From Isosphaeraceae bacterium EP7 (GTDB lineage: Bacteria; Planctomycetota; Planctomycetia; Isosphaerales; Isosphaeraceae), in NCBI GenBank assembly GCA_038400315.1, contig CP151667.1, positions 248,001 through 312,000 of the forward strand: a DNA stretch of 64,000 nucleotides. The letters run 5' to 3'. Below are positions 8,184 through 15,762 of the stretch, one piece after another. Below the pieces are notes generated by a model. The model made no database searches and was not told the origin of the DNA. It saw only the letters and a program-made list of their open reading frames with translations. The position numbers and the translations under genes were made by a program. Position 1 is the stretch's first letter, and every line of letters begins with the position of its first letter.

Positions 8184-9278
8184 TCAGCAGGAGGCCAGCG
8201 ACGCCGCGGCCACCCTGCGACGCTCATTCGACTGCCGCAACTTGCGTGAATTGCGAGACTTGGGTTTCAAATCGGTGGTCGCGGCGACCAGCCCGCCCGG
8301 GGCCACCATCGGGCCCAAATCGGTCCCGCCTTGCATCCCGCTCGGGGCCGTCATCGCCGCGGCGAATTTGCCCCGATCGGCCAGGTTTGGCCCCTCGCGT
8401 TGGGTTCGTTCGGCGCGGGCCTCGGGCTGGCTGGCCGGGTCGGCCGGCTCCTGGGTCTGGCCGCTTGCGCGGGCCTTCCCCTTGCTCAGCAGGTCCATCG
8501 CCCACCGCATCCGCCGCAGGCTGGCCGTCTCGTAGCGACGGATCAGGGTCAGCGTCGGGTCGGCCACCACGTCCAGGCCCTGCATCGCCGCCTCGCGCAT
8601 CTCGGCCTCGATCGCGTCGAGGGCCTGCTCCTTCCGATCCATCAGCCGGCCGAGCTGGTTCTCGACCAGCTCGAACCGGAACGCGAGCCCGTCCGGCCCG
8701 TCGGCGTCGTCCAGCGGGCTGGGCAGCTCGCGCAGGTCGGGATCAATCCCCAGCATGTCCAGGGCGAGTGATTGCTGGGCCTCGGTCCACCCGCCGTTGC
8801 AGTCCAGGGCATACCCCAGCATCTTCCAGCGGTCGATCAGCCAGTCGCACCCCGGCGCCGACGACGCCAGCTCCATCGCCGTCTCGGCCGGCCGCGCGGC
8901 CAGCGTACGCGCCTCGCGTGCGATCGAGGCCTTGCGCTCATCCTCCCAGCAATGTTCGGCCCGACGGGCCTTGAAGTCGCGGGCCAGCCGCTCCTCGGCC
9001 CTGCACCGCTCGACCCGCAAACTCTCCACCGCGACCGTCTCGACGAGCACCCCTTCGAACGCATCAACCGGCCCCAGAGCCTCGCGGCACTCCTCGGCCC
9101 GAACCCGCAGCGCCTCGGTCTCGCGCTCAAAAAGCACCACCCCGACCCCGGCCAGCCCATGAACCAGGCTGTTCCGCCGAGACTTCGCCTTCCCCTCGGC
9201 CGTCCTGGGCCCGGTGCTGAGCGCGGCATTGCGGCGATTGGCGTCGATGCGCCTCTGGCTGGTGGCAGTCGTACCCAT
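8184..9278 (-). CDS. Conserved hypothetical protein with N-terminal STGPRT.EGK..SRRN motif
   Basis: 364 aa, very charged, no signal peptide or membrane helix. The N-terminus ANRRNAALSTGPRTAEGKAK followed by SRRNSLVHGLAG is a motif seen at the start of many uncharacterised bacterial proteins, common in planctomycetes. The middle is largely alpha-helical, and the C-terminal third is low-complexity and basic. I do not recognise a function. It lies 236 bp from a hexanucleotide repeat tract and borders the retron-like island. It could be a host gene at the insertion border or part of accessory DNA. Confidence 0.7.
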   Translation of the reverse strand: MGTTATSQRRIDANRRNAALSTGPRTAEGKAKSRRNSLVHGLAGVGVVLFERETEALRVRAEECREALGPVDAFEGVLVETVAVESLRVERCRAEERLARDFKARRAEHCWEDERKASIAREARTLAARPAETAMELASSAPGCDWLIDRWKMLGYALDCNGGWTEAQQSLALDMLGIDPDLRELPSPLDDADGPDGLAFRFELVENQLGRLMDRKEQALDAIEAEMREAAMQGLDVVADPTLTLIRRYETASLRRMRWAMDLLSKGKARASGQTQEPADPASQPEARAERTQREGPNLADRGKFAAAMTAPSGMQGGTDLGPMVAPGGLVAATTDLKPKSRNSRKLRQSNERRRVAAASLASC

Positions 9279-9514
9279 GGGGCTGCGTCGCTTCCTTGGG
9301 AGGTGCTCATTCGAGCGAGATCAACACCGGCGGCGGTGTGGCCGGGGACACGCACCATCGCGCCATCACCCAACCTGATCTCATCGTATCCCCGCATCCA
9401 GGCGGTCGTCCACGCTAAATAAGGAAAATGGGCGAGATTTTCCGAGGAGGCAAGTTGGCCAGATCAGGCCGGATGACGGGCAGGGAGAACGGATCGAAAC
9501 GCAGGCCGATTCTT

Positions 9515-9715
9515 CCTTGTCCTTGTCCTTGTCCTTGTCCTTGTCCTTGTCCTTGTCCTTGTCCTTGTCCTTGTCCTTGTCCTTGTCCTTGTCCTTGTCC
9601 TTGTCCTTGTCCTTGTCCTTGTCCTTGTCCTTGTCCTTGTCCTTGTCCTTGTCCTTGTCCTTGTCCTTGTCCTTGTCCTTGTCCTTGTCCTTGTCCTTGT
9701 CCTTGTCCTTGTCCT
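9515..9715. repeat. Perfect hexanucleotide microsatellite (CCTTGT)33.5
   Basis: 201 bp of uninterrupted CCTTGT units (33 full copies plus CCT). Any frame across it gives alternating dipeptides (Cys-Pro, Ser-Leu, Asp-Lys and so on). No start signal supports translation, so I do not call a gene. The lack of any interruption implies recent or ongoing slippage. It sits 26 bp outside the left duplicated segment flanking the retron-like cassette. Confidence 0.98.
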
Positions 9716-9740
9716 GAACCAAGAATGTTGGCCCATATCT

Positions 9741-9995
9741 GATGAGCTTCGTACAGCGGAGAGGAATGTCGGGGGCTCATGCGAACTCGAGACAGTCCGG
9801 AGCAGTTCGCCAAGTTTTACGCGAAATCCAAGGCGACCGCGAAGCCGGAGCGGGGGGAAAGTAGAATCTCCGTTTCCCGAGTGCGACCATTTTTTCTGTG
9901 CAAGTGGACCAGATCTGCTTGTAGGAAATTAACCACAAGTTGAAGACTTTTCGGAAACCGGCTTGACGTCACGTTAAAGTGAGGCTTTAATGATG
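9741..9995. repeat. Left copy (A) of a ~250-bp duplicated upstream region flanking the retron-like cassette
   Basis: Aligns by eye along its length with 12760-13003. Shared blocks include GATGAG...CGTAC..CGGAGAGG, ATGTCGGGG, CATGCGA, TCGCCAAGTTT.ACGCGA, a TTTTTTCTG run, and the end GTCAC.T.AAAG.GAG. Identity is roughly 70-80% in the first 120 bp and lower afterwards. In copy B this DNA is the leader of the secreted-protein gene at 13000; in copy A it supplies the cassette promoter. Confidence 0.75.
9963..9991 (+). promoter_or_regulatory. Sigma-70-type promoter of the retron-like cassette
   Basis: TTGACG (9963-9968), a 17-base spacer and TTTAAT (9986-9991): a near-consensus housekeeping promoter, and the best one seen in the window. 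Transcription would start near 9998, just upstream of the structured region and the RT operon. Confidence 0.7.
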
Positions 9996-10009
9996 ACGGA
10001 CAGTCCGAG

Positions 10010-10259
10010 CCTCCTAAGCACGTGCTTGCATGTTGCCCTATGGGCCTGAAACGGTCTGCTTCCCGACGGCCATTTCTCGAAAGAGGAAGGCACGAGGGCG
10101 ATCAGATCGAAGTTAGACGCGGGGTGGGGGTAGGTGGGCGGTCATCGGGCCGCGCGTTCCTCATTTTCCTAGGCGGGTGTCTGCGAGACGGGCGTTCCAG
10201 TCGCGTCGCAGGCACTGTGGTTGGGGTCAACGTTTGGCCCCGTCGCAGCCCCTAGGAGG
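10010..10259 (+). ncRNA. Structured leader RNA of the cassette (alternative msr-msd candidate)
   Basis: About 250 nt between the promoter and the first ORF, with no supportable protein. It contains many short stem-loops: GCCC-TAT-GGGC (10035-10045), CTTCC/GGAAG enclosing TTTC/GAAA (10059-10089), CGATC-A-GATCG (10099-10109), GTCT-GCG-AGAC (10179-10189) and GGGGTCAA-CGT-TTGGCCCC (10223-10241). Its ends can pair: CCTCCTA (10010-10016) with TAGGAGG (10253-10259), the left arm followed by AGC as in retron msr genes. The right arm is also the Shine-Dalgarno of the next ORF, so the pairing could be chance or could control translation. Confidence 0.45.
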
Positions 10260-10267
10260 TATGTTCC

Positions 10268-10528
10268 ATGAGAGTTCATGGTTCCGGATTGTCCCCCGGC
10301 CGCACGAGTTCCAGGGAGAGCGATAGGAATCGACGGATCGAAGTGATCATCGATTTCTGGAACAAACTCCGGACGAATGAGCAGTTGGGTGCGACCACAT
10401 GGAGCGTGCTAGAGCCCCTGGAGCGAATCGTGACAGACGCCTTTTCCACATCGCCGAAAAACCTGAATAAGGCCGATGCGGCGACGGCTGAGGCGTTTTC
10501 TCACATTCTCGGCTTCACGGAACTCTAG
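10268..10528 (+). CDS. Small protein of unknown function, first ORF of the retron-like operon
   Basis: 86 aa. A perfect AGGAGGT Shine-Dalgarno sits 7 bases before the ATG, and third positions are G/C-rich in the second half, both favouring a real gene. The protein is helical and unrecognised (IEVIIDFWNKLRTNEQLG, then EPLERIVTDAFS). Oddly, its last 43 codons coincide with an inverted-repeat RNA candidate (10400-10537), and its stop codon lies inside the right arm. Either the RNA overlaps a real gene, or the ORF is partly fortuitous. Confidence 0.5.
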   Translation: MRVHGSGLSPGRTSSRESDRNRRIEVIIDFWNKLRTNEQLGATTWSVLEPLERIVTDAFSTSPKNLNKADAATAEAFSHILGFTEL

Positions 10529-10537
10529 CACGCTCCA
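10400..10537 (+). ncRNA. Candidate retron msr-msd RNA bounded by a perfect 15-bp inverted repeat
   Basis: TGGAGCGTGCTAGAG (10400-10414) is the exact reverse complement of 10523-10537, with 108 nt between. Inside are nested arms ACGCCT (10437-10442)/AGGCGT (10491-10496), TCGCCG (10451-10456)/CGGCGA (10479-10484) and CCT/AGG (10462-10464/10470-10472). In retrons, a1/a2 repeats flank msr-msd and the branching G lies just inside a1 in an AGC context. Here AGC is 10413-10415, making G10414 the candidate. The right arm ends 20 bp before the regulator gene and is upstream of the RT. The 108-nt interior is short for a retron. Confidence 0.5.
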
Positions 10538-10557
10538 ACCAAATCACGGGCACAGGC

Positions 10558-10875
10558 ATGGCGATCCCGCTGGGAAAGACTGCCCGCAATCTGCGGGAGA
10601 CGGTCGGCCTCACTCAGAGGGCGATGGCGGAAGAATTGGGGATTTCCGCGGTCCACCTCTGCAACATTGAGAAGAACAAATCGGTGCCGTCCCAGGACAT
10701 CTTGGATCGGTACCGTGCGTTGTGGGGGGTCGACCTCTACGTCCTAGCCTGGTGCCTGCACGGTGACATCGGCAGCCTCCCCGAGTCGCTGCGAGCCGCG
10801 GCAGCGGCGATCGCGGAGGGGTGGCAGAAGGAACTGGGCGTCAAGCTGAAGAAGATCCGTGCGGGGCCCGATTAG
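10558..10875 (+). CDS. XRE-family helix-turn-helix regulator of the cassette
   Basis: 105 aa. A Cro/C1-type HTH occupies roughly residues 7-60: TARNLRETVGLTQRAMAEEL, then GISAVHLCNIEKNKSVPSQD and ILDRYRALWGVDL. The C-terminal part is amphipathic helix with a Lys-rich end. It ends 2 bp before the RT start, so it is in one operon with it. HTH proteins occur as accessory genes in some retron types; it could repress the operon promoter at 9963-9991 or bind msDNA. The ribosome binding site is weak, and the 15-bp inverted-repeat arm lies 20 bp upstream. Confidence 0.88.
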   Translation: MAIPLGKTARNLRETVGLTQRAMAEELGISAVHLCNIEKNKSVPSQDILDRYRALWGVDLYVLAWCLHGDIGSLPESLRAAAAAIAEGWQKELGVKLKKIRAGPD

Positions 10876-10877
10876 CG

Positions 10878-11933
10878 ATGCTCAACGTCCGATCCCTGCG
10901 ATGCCTGGCGACGATCATGGGGGTTTCGGTCGGGGCCTTGCACAGGGGGGTGTCTGGGGCCGAGCAGGATCACCGCGAGTTGCTGCTGATCGACCCGCGG
11001 AAGCCAGACAAGGTCCGGGTCGTCCTGGACGTCTTCGGGCTGCGGAAGCAGCTCCTCGGTTCCTTGTATAAGAGACTATTCCTCAAAAGACTCACCCCTT
11101 CGGTGTTCAGCCACGGAGGGGTGCGAGGCCGGTCGATCGTCAGCAACGCGAACGCGCACCGGGCGTCCGTTCACGTCTATAAAGCGGATATTTCCGACTT
11201 CTTCCCCACGATTCATCGCCAGAAGGTCTACGACACGATCGTTGGGAAATTCGGATGCTCACCTGACGTCGCCAGCATCTGCACCCGGCTCTGCACGCAC
11301 AATCATCACCTCGCCCTCGGCCTGACGACGAGCCCGATACTCGCGGATCAGATCATGAGCAGGGTCGACGAACGGATCGGTGCGGCGTGCAAGAAGGAGG
11401 GGCTCGTGTACACCAGGTTCGTCGACGATATGACGATCAGCGGAAGTTTCGATCTCGAGCAGAGCGGATTCATCAATCTGATCGCGAAAATTGTCAAGCA
11501 GGATGGCTTCGAGATCAATGCGTCGAAGAATACATTCGGCAGGCTCTCCGACGGCCTGTCCATAACAAGCCTGCGTATCCGCAAGGGAAGGCTGGATGTG
11601 CGGAGCGAATATTGCGATGAGGTAGAGAGGCAGATCAGGGATGCAAGATCCTTAATCGATACCACTGAGAACTTTGAAGGGCCATATTTCACGCCGACCC
11701 AGATTTTCGGCAGGGTTCAATTCGTATCGACGATCAATCGCGGCAGGGGCTATCGCCTCCTGCGTCAATACAGGTCGGTTGACTGGAGCAGGGTGGTGGA
11801 AGCGGCCGCTCTGGCCGGACTAGTCGTGTGCAGAATTCACCTGGTTCCACGTAATTCTGGGAGTCAACCGATTCCTCCAGGAGAGAATTTGCCGGAGATT
11901 CAGGAAAAACTTCAAAAAGAATTCGATGGCTGA
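10878..11933 (+). CDS. Retron-type reverse transcriptase
   Basis: 351 aa from the ATG 2 bp after the regulator stop (an upstream in-frame start at 10821 would overlap the regulator). It aligns from memory with the Ec86 retron RT: NANAH at 90-94 fits NAxxH, then YKADISDFFPTI with catalytic Asp104, LALGLTTSPILADQ in place of LPQGAPTSP, YTRFVDDMTISG with Asp183-Asp184 in place of YADD, and SITSLRIRKGRL in place of VTGLVIS. The C-terminal thumb (FGRVQFVSTINRGRGYRLL) resembles the Ec86 HVRGWLSFILSVD region. It therefore has both retron-specific regions, but with diverged catalytic context. It would copy the cassette RNA into msDNA. No maturase or integrase domain is present. Confidence 0.88.
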   Translation: MLNVRSLRCLATIMGVSVGALHRGVSGAEQDHRELLLIDPRKPDKVRVVLDVFGLRKQLLGSLYKRLFLKRLTPSVFSHGGVRGRSIVSNANAHRASVHVYKADISDFFPTIHRQKVYDTIVGKFGCSPDVASICTRLCTHNHHLALGLTTSPILADQIMSRVDERIGAACKKEGLVYTRFVDDMTISGSFDLEQSGFINLIAKIVKQDGFEINASKNTFGRLSDGLSITSLRIRKGRLDVRSEYCDEVERQIRDARSLIDTTENFEGPYFTPTQIFGRVQFVSTINRGRGYRLLRQYRSVDWSRVVEAAALAGLVVCRIHLVPRNSGSQPIPPGENLPEIQEKLQKEFDG

Positions 11934-11974
11934 GTCATTGACCCTCCAGTTTATACCTGTGGAGTCGCAAGAAG

Positions 11975-12685
11975 ATGCTTATCGACATCATGAAGCAGCT
12001 CGGCATCGTCTTTGGCGGTACGACTGCTGCCGTTGTGGTGCTTGCCTACCTAAGTCGGTCGCTTCTGACCCAACGCTTCGCTCGGGATATGGAGAGGCAC
12101 AAGGCCGAACTGAAAGTGAAGACCGACGCTGAGGTTGAGATCCTAAAGAGCAAGCTCAAAGCGCAAGGCGACCTTGAGATTGAGCGACTAAAACATGACC
12201 TAAGGCTACAGTCCTTCGAGCACGAAACCCGCTACCGGAGACTTCACGAGGATGTAGCAAAAACGATTTCCGAGACCTATCCTCTTCTATTAGAACTATA
12301 CAATAATATAGCGACAATGGTTTCGCCTGCTGAGTTTTCATGGCAGCCCTCCAAGGATGAGTTGATAGCCATGGCCGAAGCTAGCTCCAAGAAATTCGTA
12401 GAGTACTTCACCGCTCACCGCCTCTACTACCCCAAGGATCTGTTTAAGAAGATCGAGGATCTCAATGGGATTTTAACTAAGACTGCCAATAAATTTAAGA
12501 TGGCCTATGAACGGGACAAAGCCGGTAAGGTGGATGCGTTGCTTGAGTGGAACGCGGCTTGGGTAGAAATAATGGAGAAGGCCAGCCCGCTGTTCGGCAC
12601 GATGCATGATGACTTCCAGCGTATCCTGGGCTTCAGGGAACGGGAGCCTGAAGAGCCAATCAAACCAATCCCGCCAACCCCTTGA
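11975..12685 (+). CDS. Membrane-anchored coiled-coil protein, candidate effector of the retron-like system
   Basis: 236 aa. One N-terminal membrane helix (about residues 9-31: GIVFGGTTAAVVVLAYLS) is followed by a long coiled coil (about 35-90, rich in Lys/Glu heptads such as MERHKAELKVKTDAE) and a helical C-terminal domain. It resembles uncharacterised TM-plus-coiled-coil proteins found in bacterial accessory DNA. Codons are visibly A/T-richer than in neighbours (about 12200-12520), suggesting horizontal origin. It starts 41 bp after the RT stop, same strand. In characterised type IV retrons (Ec48) a membrane protein is the killing effector; that role here is inference. Confidence 0.75.
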   Translation: MLIDIMKQLGIVFGGTTAAVVVLAYLSRSLLTQRFARDMERHKAELKVKTDAEVEILKSKLKAQGDLEIERLKHDLRLQSFEHETRYRRLHEDVAKTISETYPLLLELYNNIATMVSPAEFSWQPSKDELIAMAEASSKKFVEYFTAHRLYYPKDLFKKIEDLNGILTKTANKFKMAYERDKAGKVDALLEWNAAWVEIMEKASPLFGTMHDDFQRILGFREREPEEPIKPIPPTP

Positions 12686-12759
12686 TGCTCATCTACTTCC
12701 TCTCTCTGCGAGGAGCGACGTTGGTGATTGACCGACGCCGTGGACGCAGGCCCGGACCC

Positions 12760-13003
12760 GATGAGTCCCGTACGACGGAGAGGGATGTCGGGGAATCTCC
12801 CATGCGAGCGCGATCCAGTTCGGGCCGGATCGCCAAGTTTCACGCGACATCCAGGGTGGTCGCCACGCCGGAGTGAGGTAAGAGCCGAACGACCGCTTTT
12901 TTCTGAATGGGGGCAGGTCATTTCGGCAAGTTGGCTGATTGGGTAATTTGTAATCGCGATTCTTCGCTCGGTGAGGTCACTTAAAAGAGAATACGCATCA
13001 TGA
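12760..13003. repeat. Right copy (B) of the duplicated upstream region, leader of the 13000 gene
   Basis: Diverged direct repeat of 9741-9995, same orientation. It makes up almost all of the 314-bp gap between the coiled-coil gene and the secreted-protein gene and runs into the latter's ATG. The end GAGGTCAC.TAAAAGAGA aligns with the promoter zone of copy A (GACGTCACGTTAAAGTGAG). No near-consensus -35/-10 pair is visible in this copy. Confidence 0.75.
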
Positions 13004-15762
13004 ATGTCGCCATCTCGATGATAAAGCGGCTCTTTGAACTGAATGCCCGGTCGTCGCGTTCCAAGGGCACGGGCCGCGCGCGTTCAGCCGGGGGGCGAGC
13101 CCACCACGGGATTCAGGTGACGGCCGAGATTTATCGCCTTGAAGACCGTTGCTTACTCAGTTTGTTGCCCAATCAGTTTCCGCCTAATCAGGTGAAGAAC
13201 GCGGTTCCGTTATCGACCATCCTCTGGAACGGCGGACCGGCGATGCCGGGCGCCCCGTCGACCGCGAGCGTCCAATCGCCGTCCGCGGCCGGCGCGATGA
13301 AGACCATCACGCTCACCAACAACGGCAACTCGATGGTTTATCCCTTCATCCGCGGCGCCAACACGGGGCAGGATCCGAACGCGACATCGACGAACAAATA
13401 TTACGACCCCCAGGATGTTGTCGGGCAGGAATACCGTCAATACATCGGGTATCAAACACGTGGCGGCACGTTTATTGGATTGCCCAGGGGCGCGACCATC
13501 ACATTCCAGGTCCCCCTGGTCTTGTGGGATGGGGACAATTTCTTCATCGCGACCGACCCGAAGTACCTGACGTCGAATAAGCCGGTTTACAATTACAACC
13601 CGAGCGGACTCATCAGCGTCGCCGGGACGAAGCCCGTCGGCACCACCCCCGAGAACACGACGACCTGGGTGACGGGCCGCTCCGGCTATCCCCTCGGCGC
13701 GAATCCCGTCGTCGTCTTCTACCGCTCGCCGACGCCCGCCACCGTGTTGCGCGCCGCCTCAGCCCAGCTCGGCGAGTGGACGTTCCGAGACCCCTACCTG
13801 ACCAACTTCATCACCGATCCGTTACAAACCTTCCCGCTCATCAACTACGATGTCTCCTATGTGAATAACCTCACGGCACCCGTCTCGATCGAGGCGAGCA
13901 AGGTGCCGATCACGTCGGGAGATCGACTGAGCCTCACGTCTCCCACTTACTTTGGTTATCAGGATTACGGCTGGAACCCCACCAACCTTGGCGCCCCCGC
14001 CTTCCAAGCGGCGGTTCAAAGCTTCATCGCCAACAACGGCATCGCCGCAATCGGCAACTATTTTGGCGGCAAGGGCTGGCCCTCCTATTACAACACCAAT
14101 TCCGGCGATCTCGTGATCCCCTCCGGCGCCAACGCCTTCCTGGACAGCCCCCTCACCAACGCCAGGTCGCCGTACGCCGCGGATAACAATTACTACCTGC
14201 TCACCAGCACGAACAGCGGCGCCGGGCCGATCCAGCTCGCGAGCCTCGGGGCGATTTCTGCGCAGGGCAACACCATTCGTTTCGCCCCGAACTACATGCC
14301 GCAACTCGTGGCACTGAAGAGGGCGTATAACGGCGGCGAGACGATCGGCGTCAATGCGAGCAAGGGCGATTATCCGGCCGGGACCACGGTGACGGGCGTC
14401 AACCTCACCAATTTCACCGTCACCGTGAGCAATAGCCATACCGACAAAATCTCGGGCGGCGTCTACAATTTCGTCCGCCCCGTCAATGATTATGCCGTCT
14501 CACTCATCACAAAACTCTTCTATTCCTGGGCGCATTACTACGTCACCCAGTTCGCGAATTTCCAGCCCGTAACCGCAAGCGCCAGCTACAGCCCGGTCCT
14601 GCCCATCGGGCCGACGAACGAAATCACCCTCACCTCCGTTCCCGCCGCGCCGTTGAAGGTCGGGATGACGGTGTCGGGCCCGGGTCTTCTCCCCGGGACG
14701 ACCATCCTCACCATCGTCGACTCCAACAATAACCCCATCGGCTCCGCCGGTGCCGTCGGGGACCAGATCTCCCTCAGCCTGGTCCCCTCCGGCCTCCCGA
14801 CCGGGACGAGCAGCTTCACATTCGGCAAGCCGACGGACATCCCTTACACCAATTACAGCTCGACCAATTTCTCATTCTCGCCCTATGCATTCAGCTTTAC
14901 GACGCCCGCCGCGCAGCAGCAAGCCCTGCTCTTCGCCTCGTCCGTCTACGCGGCGATGTCCGCCGAGGCCGGTGCGCTCCAGCCTTCTCCGCTCCCCCCG
15001 CCCGCGCAACTTGTCGGCCAGGTCATCCAGTTCTATGCAAACCTGCCGACCGATGGTTCCCCGGGAGGGAAGTACCTCACCGGCCAGGTTCGGGACGTCG
15101 TGAAATCCATCCTCCGCGGCGTCTGGAATTTCGTCGCCATCCCCGATCAATCGAGCTGGTATGCGAACCCCGGAGTGTCCACACCGAATGCAATGGTCGA
15201 TGGTAAGCCCGCGACGTTCGGGATCTACAACCTCGACCCATACGTCTGGTTTGTTCACGACGTCGTGAATATGGCGGGATATGCCTTCTCCGTTGACGAC
15301 GACGTGGCCAATCCCGCCGCCCCCGGCCCCGTCGCGGCGCCGGGTTCAACTCCCGCCAATCCGATTTACAACCACTTCCCCAACAACCTTCAAATCTCTT
15401 ACGGCGGAATCCAGGGCTTCGGCACCCAGTCTCCTTGGTTCCCGACCATTCCCTGGGGCAAAATCAGCACCCAGGCGACCATCAGCAAACAAGTGGGCGG
15501 CGCTTATGACGGATCTTACATGATCACGCTGACGGCCAAAAACGCACTGACGCTCTTCAACCAGATCAACAATCCCGGCCCAGGGCAGGTTGGCGCGTAC
15601 GTCACGGCGGCGGGGTTCATTCCCAAGGGGACCACGCTCATCTTCAAAGGTCCCAACGGCGACACAAATCCCCAGATCGTCATGCTGCCGCCCCCGAATG
15701 GCACAGTCAAGCTAACCAGCAAGGCCATCCCGATCACGATCACGGGTACCTTGCCCGGATAA
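13000..15762 (+). CDS. Large secreted planctomycete protein with LEDRxLLS N-terminal signature
   Basis: 920 aa. After a basic N-terminus comes YRLEDRCLLSLL (about residues 46-57), the LEDRxLLS-type signature common on exported planctomycete proteins. From about residue 100 the sequence is beta-rich, with Asn, Thr, Gly and Pro abundant (KTITLTNNGNSMVYPFIRG; WDGDNFFIATDPKYL). A module near 535-600 contains LKVGMTVSGPGLLPGTTI, a repeat-like segment found in bacterial surface proteins. No catalytic motif is recognised; a glycan-binding or glucanase-like role is possible but unproven. Codons are less G/C-biased than neighbouring genes. The ribosome binding site is weak. Confidence 0.8.
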   Translation: MNVAISMIKRLFELNARSSRSKGTGRARSAGGRAHHGIQVTAEIYRLEDRCLLSLLPNQFPPNQVKNAVPLSTILWNGGPAMPGAPSTASVQSPSAAGAMKTITLTNNGNSMVYPFIRGANTGQDPNATSTNKYYDPQDVVGQEYRQYIGYQTRGGTFIGLPRGATITFQVPLVLWDGDNFFIATDPKYLTSNKPVYNYNPSGLISVAGTKPVGTTPENTTTWVTGRSGYPLGANPVVVFYRSPTPATVLRAASAQLGEWTFRDPYLTNFITDPLQTFPLINYDVSYVNNLTAPVSIEASKVPITSGDRLSLTSPTYFGYQDYGWNPTNLGAPAFQAAVQSFIANNGIAAIGNYFGGKGWPSYYNTNSGDLVIPSGANAFLDSPLTNARSPYAADNNYYLLTSTNSGAGPIQLASLGAISAQGNTIRFAPNYMPQLVALKRAYNGGETIGVNASKGDYPAGTTVTGVNLTNFTVTVSNSHTDKISGGVYNFVRPVNDYAVSLITKLFYSWAHYYVTQFANFQPVTASASYSPVLPIGPTNEITLTSVPAAPLKVGMTVSGPGLLPGTTILTIVDSNNNPIGSAGAVGDQISLSLVPSGLPTGTSSFTFGKPTDIPYTNYSSTNFSFSPYAFSFTTPAAQQQALLFASSVYAAMSAEAGALQPSPLPPPAQLVGQVIQFYANLPTDGSPGGKYLTGQVRDVVKSILRGVWNFVAIPDQSSWYANPGVSTPNAMVDGKPATFGIYNLDPYVWFVHDVVNMAGYAFSVDDDVANPAAPGPVAAPGSTPANPIYNHFPNNLQISYGGIQGFGTQSPWFPTIPWGKISTQATISKQVGGAYDGSYMITLTAKNALTLFNQINNPGPGQVGAYVTAAGFIPKGTTLIFKGPNGDTNPQIVMLPPPNGTVKLTSKAIPITITGTLPG

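Follow-up and report, generated by a model that had tools for sequence, protein, structure and literature searches.

Our comparison of homologous cassettes identifies a perfect 15-bp inverted repeat in a planctomycete type VI retron as the helix that closes a conserved RNA rod, one that the sense strand forms within the retron mRNA. The rod (positions 10400 to 10537) overlaps the 3′ half of a small open reading frame (ORF); its basal helix covaries across the 13 cassettes that were aligned, and its interior is folded more stably than the encoded protein alone would demand. The best explanation, to which we assign a probability of somewhat under one half (about 0.45), is that the rod and the a1/a2 helix of a separate, upstream msr-msd RNA together keep the small ORF untranslated and leave the genes for the XRE-family regulator and the reverse transcriptase (RT) open. 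All positions refer to the window, that is, the whole 64-kb stretch of DNA that was analyzed, and all features discussed as parts of the cassette are on its forward (+) strand.

The retron cassette and its msr-msd RNA

Retrons are bacterial defense cassettes with an RT. By its profile matches and gene order, the planctomycete locus belongs to type VI and consists of a noncoding RNA (ncRNA), an 86-aa ORF, an XRE regulator, and an RT. As summarized in PMC8541194 (citing Mestre et al. 2020), type VI retrons combine an RT with a DNA-binding protein and a small auxiliary protein. The RT of the window (10878 to 11933) matches the PADLOC profile RT_VI with an E value of 3.1e-50, the best of 80 families, and RT_VI is also the best family for the RTs of L041, L042, L046, and L061; in the alignment it carries the retron RT motifs NANAH (NAxxH) and FVDD (the catalytic xxDD). 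Directly before it lies the gene for an XRE-family helix-turn-helix (HTH) protein (10558 to 10875; PADLOC HTH_VI, E value of 1.2e-14), which in turn is preceded by the small auxiliary ORF, conserved in all 15 cassettes. The sequence also contains a putative cassette promoter, TTGACG-N17-TTTAAT (9963 to 9991), and similar TTGAC...TTTAAT elements are present upstream of several other cassettes. At residue ~230, in place of the retron motif VTG, the window RT has ITS, and some relatives have T-K or T-Q.

We found 14 homologous cassettes (15 with that of the window itself), 12 of them close (L002, L033, L040, L041, L046 to L052, and L058) and 2 distant (L042 and L043). These homologues are from Planctomycetota. 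Scanning genome contigs with single sequences or alignments yielded at most one relative; the others were retrieved when whole genomes were searched with RT alignments, the window RT, and the profile for type VI RTs. The gene order is the same in all cassettes: upstream RNA, small ORF, XRE, and RT. The locus thus shares with type VI retrons an RT and an HTH protein that match the type VI profiles, a small ORF preceding the HTH gene, and an ncRNA upstream, but it belongs to a planctomycete branch whose RT is at most 54% identical to those of the relatives found. We regard it as a new type VI retron from the planctomycetes; type VI as a group appears to have been little studied.

Sequence comparison supports an RNA at about 10009 to 10260, with the same layout in the homologous cassettes, as the true msr-msd of the cassette. 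Its a1 arm, GCCTCCTA (10009 to 10016), would pair with the a2 arm, TAGGAGGT (10253 to 10260), and an AGC branch site (10017 to 10019) directly follows a1. The a2 arm contains AGGAGG, the Shine-Dalgarno sequence of the small ORF. When the region after the promoter was compared with the region before the small ORF, this flanking helix was the best complementary pair in nearly every cassette, with lengths of 16 bp in L041, 13 bp in L043, 12 bp in L042, and 10 bp in L047 and L052; only in L033 and L048 was it weak. The 190 to 290 nt between the two arms hold small msr-like hairpins and longer hairpins, and a comparable layout is found in known retrons (PMC6868368). A motif of the GGGCCTGAAACGG type, at ~10042 to 10054 and after a small hairpin, is common to most of the upstream RNAs and is possibly an msr recognition element. 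The a1/a2 helix, the AGC, and the small and longer hairpins are thus all found at 10009 to 10260, as in a canonical msr-msd of the Retron-Eco1 type. The rod at 10400 to 10537 differs from that type in lying in coding sequence and in having neither a conserved AGC branching G nor separate msr stem-loops.

The RNA rod over the small ORF

The small ORF (10268 to 10528) has homologues in all 14 other cassettes and is under protein-level selection, with a dN/dS of ~0.4 (dN of ~0.6 and dS of at least 1.5 where calculable). Its 86-aa product, assigned as the type VI small auxiliary protein, is modeled by AlphaFold2 as three helices (pLDDT of 82); it had no match in Pfam, NCBIfam, or PADLOC, a fold search gave no PDB match, and it looks soluble and not obviously toxic. 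L049 alone, which comes from a fragmented assembly, has its small ORF shifted in frame by 1 nt; the shift falls in a run of G at about position 360, counted in the orientation of the RT gene. The rod is kept downstream of this frameshift, which is either a sequencing error or a sign of a pseudogene.

The sequence TGGAGCGTGCTAGAG at 10400 to 10414, over the codons W-S-V-L-E of the small ORF, recurs as its exact inverse at 10523 to 10537, 108 nt away. This right arm covers the TAG stop codon of the 86-aa ORF (10526 to 10528) and is followed by an A-rich stretch. Among perfect 15-bp inverted repeats with a gap of 20 to 250 nt, the pair is the only one in the whole window, where 0.07 would be expected by chance (first-order Markov sequences of the same composition). 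An earlier note on this DNA had held that the repeat exceeds chance and that its right arm ends 20 bp before the regulator-RT genes; both statements are confirmed, with 20 nt between position 10537 and the XRE start at 10558. The nested pairing that the note had described between the arms proved to be stronger than claimed. The ~138 nt from 10400 to 10537 fold into one continuous rod of -74.2 kcal/mol (z score of -8.6 against dinucleotide shuffles), the minimum-free-energy structure is identical to the centroid, and averaged pair probabilities across the cassettes give an unbroken rod from base to tip.

When compared with exact permutations of synonymous codons, which preserve the protein, the rod interior gave a mean z score of -2.33 and a Stouffer value of -8.7, versus 0.05, -0.8, and -2.4 for the XRE control windows in the same test. 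Some excess structure is also present in the 5′ half of the ORF (Stouffer value of -4.2). The exact inner pairs of the rod drift in register between homologues, which indicates that a shape, and not a motif, is conserved.

The stem at the base of the rod is present in all 15 cassettes at the same place, extending from codons in the middle of the ORF to its stop codon or just beyond, and encloses 103 to 117 nt (137 nt in the two distant cassettes). The repeat is conserved alongside the small protein. Covariation analysis, proposed in the earlier note as a check, supports the helix. Of the cells formed by its 15 pairs in the alignment of 13 cassettes, 87.8% are standard pairs; changes on both sides occur in 13 of the 15 pairs (35 cells), a level that none of 500 shuffles reached. 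Slid versions of the pairing dropped to 39 to 51% paired, and RNAalifold, unprompted, recovered 12 of the 15 pairs. Departures within the arms left G-U in the sense strand 16 times and A-C 4 times (P = 0.006), and this bias points to a helix of the sense-strand RNA, not to paired DNA operators or an antisense RNA.

A search of window positions 9000 to 13500 with the Rfam 15 models gave no match up to an E value of 5. The rod, compared in both orientations with the ncRNA of the same cassette, had no similarity beyond that of cross-cassette controls, and we rejected the idea of its mimicking or pairing with the msd of the cassette. The possession of this second conserved RNA structure, over the small ORF, sets the window cassette apart from type VI retrons as described; the coding-overlapping rod is absent from Rfam, and a partial literature search gave no description of it.

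Possible functions of the rod

In about 12 of the 15 cassettes, a2 overlaps the Shine-Dalgarno sequence of the small ORF. Folds of the whole leader predict an unpaired fraction of 0.27 for this Shine-Dalgarno sequence versus 0.55 for that of the XRE gene (Wilcoxon P = 0.0006). From its position in a2 and its predicted pairing, we infer that production of the small protein is locked twice. The a1/a2 helix of the msr-msd would hide the Shine-Dalgarno sequence of the small ORF, the probable effector gene, and, as long as ribosomes are absent, the rod would tie up the 3′ half of the ORF together with its stop codon. It would thereby block leaky or partial translation and would probably expose the mRNA to cleavage by a double-strand-specific RNase, while the more open XRE-RT start region would be translated. 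If the RT-ncRNA complex were disturbed, for example by phage attack, the Shine-Dalgarno sequence would be freed; synthesis of the protein would follow, as ribosomes translating the small ORF melt the rod. Such an arrangement would resemble a type I toxin mRNA with the retron as its lock. Among type I toxin-antitoxin mRNAs, hok, for example, is subject to fold-back inhibition. What the two would have in common is a small, toxin-like ORF on an mRNA locked by a stable long-range structure; the lock proposed here differs in being partly the a1/a2 helix of a retron, and toxicity and regulation in our case are putative. The rod and the Shine-Dalgarno sequence within a1/a2 would thus provide a scheme in which an effector is held back at translation, not by protein sequestration, and which links retrons to the logic of type I toxin-antitoxin systems.

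When the left arm was opened in silico, the XRE start region was predicted to stay as it was, which gives no support to a direct action of the rod on XRE-RT. We rejected a switch in which the rod, by holding its CCUCC-like right arm, would free the Shine-Dalgarno sequence of XRE: accessibility was unchanged, with a mean difference of -0.01 that was positive in 5 of 15 cases.

The rod may instead be a processing signal, at which RNase III would separate the msr-msd and small-ORF part from the XRE-RT mRNA and destroy the small-ORF message. In favor of this, the rod is a long and unbroken near-duplex that has kept its general shape but not its individual pairs, it is located between the two halves of the operon, and for Eco1 a review reports cleavage of the RT transcript from the msr-msd prior to folding (PMC6868368). 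A site between the ncRNA and the ORF would, however, be simpler than one placed over the 3′ half and stop codon of a gene, and we consider processing as the primary function possible but somewhat doubtful. Rod cleavage by a double-strand-specific RNase is compatible with the translational lock and may belong to the same function. It is also conceivable, though we think it unlikely, that the rod is a second retron RNA, which is bound by the RT, the XRE protein, or the small protein, or is reverse transcribed, and which forms part of a sensing complex or an autoregulatory site. Its conservation in 15 of 15 cassettes with strong covariation, the similar structures that phage type VI retrons have in small ORFs of unrelated sequence (see below), and its resemblance in shape to an msd hairpin would fit this. 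Against it stand the lack of msr-like hairpins and of a conserved branch G, the dissimilarity to the ncRNA of the same cassette in either orientation, and the drift of the interior pairs between homologues, which is unusual for a motif recognized by a protein. With a similarly low likelihood, type VI retrons would as a class comprise two structured RNAs, the rod being conserved across phyla despite an unrelated small protein as a working part of the defense complex, either bound or copied by the RT or sensing the trigger; if this were true, one stretch of RNA would serve as both effector gene and sensor.

Two readings of the arms that had been put forward in the earlier note are now very improbable. 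According to the one, the arms are the a1 and a2 of a compact msr-msd with a branching G at 10414. Their length does resemble that of a1/a2, and they lie upstream of the regulator-RT genes. The upstream RNA, however, appears to be a complete msr-msd with its own a1/a2, at exactly the place (10010 to 10259) that the note had named as speaking against its proposal; position 10414 is not conserved, being A in L002 and C or T in other homologues; and the fold is a single rod without msr hairpins. What stands of the original proposal is that the retron cassette contains a functional RNA fold over a genuine small ORF; the identity of this fold as msr-msd does not stand. An inverted repeat beside a retron RT need not be a1/a2. 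The other reading, to which we give just as little credence, takes the arms as a pair of inverted operators at which the XRE protein would bind DNA; the XRE gene begins only 20 nt downstream, and the coevolution of the arms would agree with this. Symmetry at the DNA level would show no strand bias, however, and the 16:4 preference for sense-strand G-U over A-C disfavors it; moreover, the interior is structured at the RNA level too, and ~400 bp separate the promoter from the arms, which are internal to the operon.

Proteobacterial and phage elements and the surroundings of the cassette

For comparison we used 19 distinct type VI elements of Proteobacteria, most of them phage-borne (phage loci among L061 to L067 and L082 to L120). 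Their small ORFs are unrelated to the planctomycete protein and mostly encode 47 to 54 aa (up to 67 aa); the predicted peptides are rich in lysine or arginine, cationic, and amphipathic and thus resemble membrane toxins, with the appearance of type I toxins. Most of these ORFs lie within stable rods. Against codon permutations, the small-ORF regions gave a mean z score of -1.57 (Stouffer value of -6.8), versus -0.72 (-3.1) for the XRE control, and a long rod persists in the enterobacterial subset, where 4 of 61 pairs are compensatory. Pairs that bridge coding and post-stop sequence were discarded as evidence, because permuted controls gave them in 11.5 of 19 cases; this leaves moderate z scores and a few compensatory pairs as the basis for the generalization to phages. 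As far as sequences can tell, the rod is likely general to type VI, including phage cassettes. Shewanella phage MuM16-1, Peduovirus P22H1, and Klebsiella ST147-VIM1phi7.1 (PMC8541194) share with the window the order ncRNA, small ORF, HTH, and RT. Elements of this kind also share the placement of most small ORFs in stable RNA rods, the MuM16-1 ORF being an exception (the Shewanella phage element L065 gave no rod signal, with z scores of +0.9 to +1.4), and they differ in their unrelated, short, and cationic small protein.

Downstream of the RT gene, a 236-aa ORF (11975 to 12685) encodes an N-terminal membrane segment and a coiled coil; its weak PADLOC matches to CARF3 and DruG are likely due to the coiled coil. 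We considered this ORF as a part of the system and rejected it, as the related loci that were retrieved held no convincing homologue. The retron cassette and this next ORF are flanked by a 125-bp direct repeat (9730 to 9850 and 12749 to 12873; 74% identical), whose two copies are the only ones found in the genome, and this suggests insertion or duplication of the unit. A perfect array of the hexanucleotide TCCTTG, with 33.7 copies, occupies positions 9514 to 9715, ~250 bp before the retron promoter.
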